DNA from: Betaproteobacteria bacterium
GTDB taxonomy: Bacteria; Pseudomonadota; Gammaproteobacteria; Burkholderiales; Rhodocyclaceae
Length of the DNA stretch: 64,000 nt
Direction: 5' to 3'
Assembly: GCA_016234745.1 (NCBI GenBank)
Contig: JACRAR010000052.1
Location: 1-64,000 of the forward strand
In this document: positions 43,107 to 45,701 of the stretch, piece by piece
Numbering within the stretch: the first letter of the stretch is position 1
How the letters are laid out: the number at the start of each line of letters is the position of its first letter
Translations under genes and position numbers: made by a program
The notes under the pieces: generated by a model
The model's database searches: none
Seen by the model: the letters and a program-made list of their open reading frames with translations, nothing else
Told to the model about the DNA's origin: nothing

Positions 43107-43840
43107 TGGCCCAGCATGCCGATGCGGTCATCCAGATCGATCAGCTTTACAAGGAATACCTGACCGATGCCGGGCCGGTGCCGGTGCTCAAGGATGTGAG
43201 GATGAATGTAGCGGCCGGCGAGTTCCTTGCCATCATGGGGCCATCGGGCTCGGGCAAGTCGACCTTCATGAACATTCTCGGTTGTCTCGACGTTGCCACC
43301 AGCGGCAGTTATTTTTTGAACAACCGCGACGTTGGCAACCTCAGCAAAGATGAACTCGCACACCTGCGCAACCAGGTGATCGGCTTCGTGTTCCAGGGAT
43401 TCAACCTGCTGCCGCGTGCCAGCATCGAAGACAATATTGCCCTGCCCCTGATCTACCGCGGTACACCGCGATCAGAGCGGTTGAAATTGGCCAACCAGAT
43501 GTTGACCAAAGTAGGTCTTGCCAGCCACCGCTCCTCACGGCCCAATCAAATCTCCGGCGGCCAGCAGCAGCGCGTCGCGATAGCCCGTGCTCTGGTGAAT
43601 CGTCCTCGATTGATCCTGGCCGATGAGCCTACTGGCAACTTGGATACCGCCACCAGCAAGGAGATCATGGCGTTGTTCACTGAGCTCAATGAACGCGACG
43701 GCATCACCATCGTGCTGGTAACCCACGAGTCCGACATCGCCGCCTATGCCCAGCGCCTGGTGCGCCTGGCCGATGGCCGCATTGTTTACGACGGCCCCCT
43801 TGCCAGTGCAGCCGCGCCCCACCTGGAGTCGACTGTATGA
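43106..43840 (+). CDS. ABC transporter ATPase, MacB/LolD type
   Basis: The 244-residue protein has Walker A MGPSGSGKSTFMNI, a Q-loop region with IGFVFQGFNLLPRASIEDNI, signature SGGQQQRVAIARALVNRPRL, Walker B LILADEPTGNLDTATS and the H-loop VTHESDIAAYA. All catalytic residues are present. Its signature with the QQ and the FVFQGFNLLPR segment is typical of the MacB/LolD group. It lacks the fused permease of E. coli MacB, so here the ATPase and permease are separate genes. It overlaps the permease gene by four bases. Confidence 0.92.
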   Translation: MAQHADAVIQIDQLYKEYLTDAGPVPVLKDVRMNVAAGEFLAIMGPSGSGKSTFMNILGCLDVATSGSYFLNNRDVGNLSKDELAHLRNQVIGFVFQGFNLLPRASIEDNIALPLIYRGTPRSERLKLANQMLTKVGLASHRSSRPNQISGGQQQRVAIARALVNRPRLILADEPTGNLDTATSKEIMALFTELNERDGITIVLVTHESDIAAYAQRLVRLADGRIVYDGPLASAAAPHLESTV

Positions 43841-45057
43841 CTGCAGCCATGCTCGGCGAGGCCTGGGCGGCGATGGGCGCAAACCGCTTGCGCACCTTCC
43901 TCACCATGCTCGGCATGGTCATCGGCGTCGGTGCGGTGATCCTGATGCTGGCGGTGGGACAGGGCGCCCAGCAGCAAGTTCAAGCTTCGATTGCCTCTAT
44001 GGGCAGCAATTTATTCATCATTTTGTCCGGTTCCGTGACTTCCGGCGGCGTGCGCATGGGTGGCGGCGCCACGCCGACGCTGACCCTGCTCGATGCCCAG
44101 GCCATTGAAGAACTGCCTTCGGTCGCTGCCGTGGCGCCGTCATCGCCGGGCACCGCGCAAATGGTGTATGGCCCCAACAACTGGAGCACCCAGGTGATCG
44201 GCACCACGCCGAGCTTTCTCACGGTGCGCGACTGGCGGCTGGAGGAAGGTTTCCCGTTTACCGAATCCGACATTCGCTCAGCAACGCGTGTTGCCCTGCT
44301 GGGAAAGACCGTGGCGCAGAATCTGTTCGGCGACGAGGATCCGGTTGGCAAGACCATCCGCATCAAAAACAGTCCCTATGTCGTCCTCGGCGTCCTGGCC
44401 GGCAAGGGACAAAGCCTCGACGGGCGCGACCAGGACGACACGGTGATCGTTCCCGTCACGACCGCCCAGCGCAAGCTGTTCGGCTCGCAGTTTGTCGGCA
44501 CGGTGCGCTTCATCATGGTCCAGGCTGAATCCGCCGAAGCGATGCCGACGGTGGAGAAATCCATGAACGAACTGCTACGGCAGCGCCATCGCATTCGCGA
44601 GGGTGCCGACAGCGATTTTTCGGTGCGCAACCTCACTGCAGTCGCCAATACCGCTGCCGAAACCGCCCAGGTGATGTCGCTGATGCTCGGCGCGATTGCC
44701 TCGGTGTCATTGCTTGTCGGCGGCATCGGCATCATGAACATCATGCTGGTATCGGTGACCGAGCGTACCCGGGAAATCGGCATTCGCATGGCGATCGGCG
44801 CCTGCGGCCGGGACATCCTGCTGCAGTTCCTGCTCGAGGCCATCATCATCTCGGTGATCGGCTGCCTGATCGGGGTTGGCCTGGGAGTCGGCGGCGCGCT
44901 GATCGTCAACAAAGTCAGCGGCATGACGGTGGTGGTGACGATCGGTTCGATCGTCATGTCTTTCGTGGTTGCCGCCACGGTCGGCATATTCTTCGGCTGG
45001 TATCCGGCGCGCAAGGCCGCCGGCATGAAGCCGATCGATGCCCTCCGCTATCAATAA
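43837..45057 (+). CDS. ABC transporter permease, MacB type
   Basis: The first membrane helix (RTFLTMLGMVIGVGAVILMLAV) is followed by a large periplasmic domain (about residues 50-280) and three C-terminal helices (SLMLGAIASVSLLVGGIGIM, FLLEAIIISVIGCLIGVGLG, VTIGSIVMSFVVAATVGIFF), the standard MacB permease topology. The FGWYPARKAAGMKPIDALRY ending is diagnostic. With the adaptor, ATPase and TolC channel it forms a MacAB-TolC-type exporter for a macrolide, peptide or heme-like compound, the substrate being unknown. Its stop codon TAA is also the left flank of a 151-bp repeat element. Confidence 0.9.
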   Translation: MTAAMLGEAWAAMGANRLRTFLTMLGMVIGVGAVILMLAVGQGAQQQVQASIASMGSNLFIILSGSVTSGGVRMGGGATPTLTLLDAQAIEELPSVAAVAPSSPGTAQMVYGPNNWSTQVIGTTPSFLTVRDWRLEEGFPFTESDIRSATRVALLGKTVAQNLFGDEDPVGKTIRIKNSPYVVLGVLAGKGQSLDGRDQDDTVIVPVTTAQRKLFGSQFVGTVRFIMVQAESAEAMPTVEKSMNELLRQRHRIREGADSDFSVRNLTAVANTAAETAQVMSLMLGAIASVSLLVGGIGIMNIMLVSVTERTREIGIRMAIGACGRDILLQFLLEAIIISVIGCLIGVGLGVGGALIVNKVSGMTVVVTIGSIVMSFVVAATVGIFFGWYPARKAAGMKPIDALRYQ

Positions 45058-45208
45058 TTCCATGCATAAATCAGCCGTGACTTTGTCCCCCAAGGGGACT
45101 TCCTTCGGGGCGTCGCTTCGCCTTGCCGTGCTACTTGCACTGTCCCACAGGGATTTCCTGCGGTCATCTTCGGCTTGTCTTCGCGTCACGACCGATTTAT
45201 GCACGGAA
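45058..45208. mobile_element. MITE-like element with 24-bp imperfect terminal inverted repeats
   Basis: The left end (45058-45081, starting TTCCATGCATAAATCA) and the right end (45185-45208, ending TTATGCACGGAA) are inverted copies with 21 of 24 positions matching. The element is flanked by TAA on both sides (45055-45057, which is the permease stop codon, and 45209-45211), a possible 3-bp target duplication. Inside are the hairpins GTCCCC-CAA-GGGGAC (45085-45099) and a shorter one (TGTCCC/GGGA). It codes for nothing, and fits a small non-autonomous element mobilised by a transposase elsewhere. It could also act as a terminator between the convergent genes. Confidence 0.65.
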
Positions 45209-45218
45209 TAAAATTATG

Positions 45219-45701
45219 TTAGTTGTCTGCCTGCCAATGCCCGGACTTGCCACCAGCCTTCTCAAGCAGCCGAATCTCCTCGATGCGCATGCCGCGGTCG
45301 ACGGCCTTGCACATGTCGTAAATGGTGAGCAGGCCGACGCTGACTGCGGTCAGCGCTTCCATTTCGACGCCGGTGCGGCCAACCGTCTCGGCGGTGACTT
45401 CGCAGGCGATACGGCAATGCGGCGCATCGATGCTGAATTCGACGCCGACGTGGGTGAGTGCGAGCGGATGACACAGCGGAATCAGATCGCCGGTGCGCTT
45501 GGTGGCCTGGATCGCGGCGATGCGCGCGATCCCCAGCACGTCGCCTTTCTTGGCGCTGCCGGACTGGATCAGCGCCAGCGTGGCGGCCTGCATGGCGATG
45601 CTGCCCCTGGCCCGGGCAATTCGGTGGGTCTCGGCTTTTTCCGTGACATCCACCATGTGTGCCTGGCCGGCGGGATCAAAATGAGTCAGTGGCGAGTGCA
45701 T
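45219..45701 (-). CDS. moaC: cyclic pyranopterin monophosphate synthase
   Basis: The protein has the MoaC signatures: [40 protein letters not shown] (the active-site lysines and conserved histidine), [20 protein letters not shown] and [12 protein letters not shown]. It forms cyclic pyranopterin monophosphate in molybdenum-cofactor synthesis. The 160-residue length fits. The ATG at 45701 follows GGAG ten bases upstream; the longer frame beyond it is the antisense of the BepA-like gene. The gene is divergent from that protease. A molybdoenzyme elsewhere in the genome is implied but not visible here. Confidence 0.93.

Follow-up and report, generated by a model that had tools for sequence, protein, structure and literature searches.

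Correia elements (CREE, NEMIS) are the closest described relatives of the repeat reported here. In the available part of PMC2649163 they are reported from Neisseria only, with TA as their target site and an undetermined mobilising mechanism, and are described as changing how genes are regulated in gonococci and meningococci. Cleavage by RNase III, binding of IHF and the presence of promoters have also been attributed to them (PMC2649163 and PMC10969869, in excerpt), and their 26-bp repeat ends begin tatagtggattaa according to an excerpt of PMC5039591. A second candidate relative is the Betaproteobacterial repeat element (BRE), a repeat of ~90 bp suspected of past mobility, whose hosts as given in the available part of PMC3110155 are Bordetella, Polaromonas, Delftia, Acidovorax and Azoarcus. 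A MITE has also been noted in Polaromonas sp. JS666 (Mattes 2008, as cited in an excerpt of PMC10969869). A literature search, at the level of its listings, gave no naming of Correia elements outside Neisseria. The element described here, 151 bp in length and located in the 64,000-nucleotide stretch of DNA that was analysed (the window), very probably belongs to a MITE family that includes the Neisseria Correia elements (probability ~0.88).

The element occupies positions 45,058–45,208 of the window on the forward strand, between a MacB_PCD/FtsX permease gene (43,837–45,057, forward strand) whose stop codon took the insertion and a convergent moaC gene (45,219–45,701, reverse strand) on its far side. 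An earlier note on this DNA had described it as MITE-like, with 24-bp inverted ends, TAA on both flanks and no transposase inside, and this description holds. On recomputation, the left arm (45,058–45,081, forward strand) matched the reverse complement of the right arm (45,185–45,208, reverse strand) at 21 of 24 positions, and a repeat search over 1,151 bases returned, as its longest inverted repeat, 45,057–45,081 with 45,185–45,209 (25 nt, 88% complementary). The TAA at 45,055–45,057 is both the permease stop codon and the left copy of a 3-bp target duplication, the right copy of which lies at 45,209–45,211 (both forward strand); the element has no coding capacity and is too short to hold a transposase. 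The conserved core hairpin common to Correia elements lies at 45,119–45,142 (forward strand). The same note had suggested that strong internal hairpins could act as a terminator. A 157-base stretch folded alone outdid 200 of 200 dinucleotide shuffles (DNA fold z −4.4; RNA fold −64.6 kcal/mol, z −5.95). The terminator role is not supported, as the three terminator-like sites in 44,900–45,400 all lie outside the element. A consensus scan of this interval detected no sigma-70-like promoter sites. At the gathering score, Rfam had no match in the window, and over ten loci it returned nothing except 6S RNA and a tRNA.

The empty-site comparison proposed in the earlier note was made with the congener G002, in which the orthologous permease (85% identity) ends in TGA and the moaC junction follows directly, with no element present. 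With the element and one TAA removed, the window aligns to G002 across the site with a score of 211.5, versus 139 for the occupied form. The element is a genuine insertion, and the window consists of the empty site, the element and one extra TAA; the permease kept its stop codon because insertion into TAA duplicated 3 bp. In a second congener, G003, a related MacB-type permease (72% identity) carries an element (L254) at its own TAA stop, with different sequence downstream, and this is most simply an independent insertion. L254 and L025 (in G001) are both copies located directly after the stops of apparent MacB/FtsX-type permease genes, in the same genus. No clean empty site for another copy, L188, was found in relatives of its host, G065, because its two flanking genes are not adjacent there.

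The 151-bp length is accounted for by two 24-bp palindromic units, each nested behind a GTC, which lengthened a ~103-bp element. Micro-repeat A (45,088–45,111, forward strand) has GTC at 45,085–45,087 and 45,112–45,114 and is not present in L254; micro-repeat B (45,145–45,168, forward strand), a variant of A, was delimited by comparing the window with L254. The 24-bp unit occurs solo or in 27-bp tandem steps, with GTC or GCA as the spacer, in 11 of 61 genomes versus none for a reversed control, and the same 3-mer flanks 11 of 36 of its sites (≤3 mismatches). At 22 of these 36 sites one or more frames are open through the surrounding stretch, and a 27-bp step preserves the frame; the unit is dispersed in the genomes of L003, L013, L014, L017, L029 and L331.

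The earlier note had also proposed a search for other copies, and the host's own genome does contain them, including a 150-bp copy (L002) that is 86% identical to the window element. Neither of the outcomes named in that note as refuting its reading was observed. A covariance model, R1, was built from 40 non-Neisseria copies, picked by hand from copies scoring 9 or higher for their arms (116 alignment columns, ~103 positions). R1 has six matches in the own genome, and over the 64-kb window the element is its sole match (E = 3.7e-6), the left arm being unaligned because of the nested inserts. Used directly as a query, the window element found a match in 16 of 61 genomes, many of them to the nested micro-repeats only. 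Within the host's order, 41 of 250 genomes had an R1 match, as did 6 of a 249-genome sample of the phylum, both lower bounds because stricter filters were used. All six are among the 14 genomes of the host's order in that sample (own genome included), and no R1 match was found outside the order in this sample under the strict filters. In a public genome collection the core pattern occurs in at least 118 stretches, some of which (e.g., in Sphingosinicella, Clostridia and Mycolicibacterium) look like chance matches; judged by record titles, the matches listed are largely from Acidovorax, Polaromonas, Hydrogenophaga, Rugamonas, Dechloromonas and Azonexus. Thirteen pattern matches on viral contigs were not counted as members, and those inspected by eye had no paired arms. 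Near-identical copies occur in bursts at unrelated sites in two genomes, G065 and G064. Three G064 loci (L211, L217 and L225) are internally deleted forms of ~50 to 77 bp that have the same ends and no core hairpin, resembling the 69–73-bp Correia forms. A different repeat, which begins CTAGAAAC, lies against an element end or breaks into it at L205 and L216.

The relationship to Correia elements emerged from a weak match that led to a stretch of N. gonorrhoeae reading as a Correia element; integron attC and REP/RAYT readings were set aside when this link was found. Searching one gonococcal chromosome with R1 gave 84 matches at E ≤ 0.001; the single match examined looks like a Correia element, and all of the matches listed span model positions 1–103. 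A Comamonadaceae copy used as a query had 35 hits on each of two gonococcal chromosomes and none in 5,426 E. coli genomes. Two gonococcal records of ~2.17 Mb in the plasmid collection, NZ_CP119140.1 and NZ_CP119142.1, are labelled plasmids yet are chromosome-sized. The characteristic Correia core is present in the window element, as indicated by its R1 match. The 26-bp Correia repeat ends are absent, the window element having ends that begin TTCCATGCATAAATC, and a 3-bp TNA duplication takes the place of the Correia TA target.

In the 40-copy alignment the core is nearly invariant, with 21 columns identical across all copies. The arms are hypervariable: no terminal base is common to the 40 copies and the arms of some differ completely, with total length staying near 103 bp. 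The arms of each copy are self-complementary (88% of cells pair), 13 of 13 arm pairs have changed on both sides in some copies, and double-change cells number 209, versus 73.5 ± 6.3 when shuffled and at most 88 with the partner slid, figures that lean towards covariation because copies were chosen by arm score, which promotes pairing, and because common descent raises the number of double changes. The three to six pair types seen per arm position are independent of both biases. Between the window copy and L002, the outer 16 nt match at 11 of 16 positions on each side and the remainder at 108 of 119, with both copies keeping 14 of 16 outer-arm pairs. The arms change faster than the rest of the element. 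Several different arm types occur within one genome, and the arms are near-uniform in the recent G065 burst. Their covariation could arise from palindrome correction instead of selection or structural recognition. The completely different arms of some copies, together with the internally deleted forms that share ends, would also fit separate histories, in which unrelated palindromes or insertion-sequence ends took up a core unit on repeated occasions; the constant length near 103 bp and the coverage of the whole model, 1 to 103, by the Neisseria matches among those listed argue against this, and it is considered unlikely.

The target sites were characterized in two sets of copies. The 138 distinct pattern sites pooled from own, relative, public and viral loci were reduced to 97 by the arm score and to 55 by the need for placeable ends (41 sites below the arm score and 42 without placeable ends were dropped from this first count); the same 3-mer lies on both sides of 31 of the 55, versus a mean of 11.8 and a maximum of 22 in 10,000 shuffles. 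For the second set, seven genomes that are rich in the Correia-core family or known to have it gave 40 candidates, of which 35 remained after 5 were dropped as their ends were not placeable, and 28 of the 35 have an exact 3-bp TNA duplication (shuffle mean 8.7, maximum 18). The duplicated 3-mers in this set are TGA (11), TCA (8), TAA (7) and TTA (2), with no others. At least seven copies are common to both sets (L041, L060, L075, L078, L096, L129 and L143, which carry other locus numbers in the second). The duplication is absent or imperfect in 24 of the 55 and 7 of the 35 bounded copies, and the 150-bp sister L002 has none (TAA/TTT). Among 56 copies, all chosen for having a TNA duplication, C precedes it in 29 and G follows it in 32. 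Stop codons hold 19 of 32 copies versus 9.1% of background TNA sites, a figure obtained with a crude gene caller and weakened by its having set aside 24 of the 56 copies as "inside ORF". In the set of 55, an open frame of 60 codons or more terminates at 32 of the 39 left-hand stop triplets, but 24 of the 39 have such a frame in the next frame as well, as GC-rich DNA does. The target sites resemble CTNAG, the TNA being exactly duplicated, and often coincide with stop codons. A rule that the core is always co-directional with the upstream gene seemed strong at first in the set of 55 (TRA 27, TYA 4); it failed in the set of 35, where TGA and TAA stand against the TCA and TTA counts given above, and at stops, where the two orientations number 14 and 5 (p = 0.064).

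A frequent position directly after stop codons, a strong RNA fold and covarying arms would also be expected of an immobile 3'-end RNA structure, a terminator or mRNA stabiliser selected after genes, whose arm covariation reflects RNA folding only. The exact 3-bp duplications, the empty site in G002, the near-identical bursts at unrelated sites, the occurrence of both orientations at stops and the lack of a terminator-like site within the element all oppose this explanation, which is regarded as highly improbable. The features of the family point instead to a non-autonomous DNA transposon (MITE) that would be moved by a transposase acting in trans, probably through 3-bp staggered cuts at TNA.

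Duplications of 3-bp TNA are reminiscent of the IS1031 and ISL2 groups of IS5, and these duplications, together with the near-uniform arms of the G065 burst, are consistent with a conventional MITE belonging to a single insertion-sequence family, the arms being subfamily-specific transposase sites whose complementarity follows from recognition by a shared enzyme and not from structure. This explanation is given a somewhat less than even chance. Against it, no insertion sequence with such ends was found in the genomes searched for the PF01609 family, no terminal base is conserved over the 40 copies, several arm types coexist in one genome, and the core, not the ends, is the most conserved part. 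The transposase with matching end repeats that the earlier note had suggested looking for was not found in this non-exhaustive search of one transposase family: none of 14 PF01609 matches in five genomes has ends like the element's beside it, and neither G064 nor G065 contains a facing pair of element ends ~1 kb apart. The transposase may alternatively read the core and/or a cruciform or hairpin form instead of one fixed end sequence, as even a single genome can hold widely differing ends; this step is held to be rather doubtful. At a similarly tentative level, Correia elements may constitute one branch of an order-wide, structure-recognized DNA transposon with a conserved core, a self-complementary fold, 3-bp duplications and preferential insertion at stop codons, in which both arms would drift together freely because mobility would depend on core and fold and not on a fixed terminal sequence.

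At the window locus, permease transcripts and antisense transcripts of moaC would carry the whole hairpin. This hairpin would be expected to offer double-stranded RNA at which RNase III processes the transcript or its 3' end is protected, as has been reported for Correia elements, and RNase III action at the permease/moaC junction is given about an even chance.

Free-living relatives carry this core too, in some cases in recent bursts, which offers a comparative route to the mobilising enzyme, and the covarying arms make recognition by structure versus end sequence testable. BRE may belong to the same family as the element. If BRE or the Polaromonas MITE does so, part of the occurrence of the family beyond Neisseria was already on record, leaving as new features the Correia link, the covariation of the arms and the 3-bp target. 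BRE resembles the element in its ~90-bp length, overlapping host range and suspected mobility, and differs in often being in tandem (available part of PMC3110155); section 14 of that paper mentions no inverted ends, target duplication or Correia kinship for BRE and cites NEMIS merely as another small repeat. The Polaromonas sp. JS666 MITE, likened here by citation alone, comes from a genus that also carries the Correia-core family (a match in G062). Correia elements differ from the window element in their host, which in the present case is not Neisseria, and, in comparison with their short form, in length, the window copy reaching 151 bp by way of two micro-repeats. They share with it a homologous core, a ~103-bp short form and inverted arms, as well as a target duplication, a non-coding nature and, as far as the available part of PMC2649163 reports, no known mobilising enzyme.
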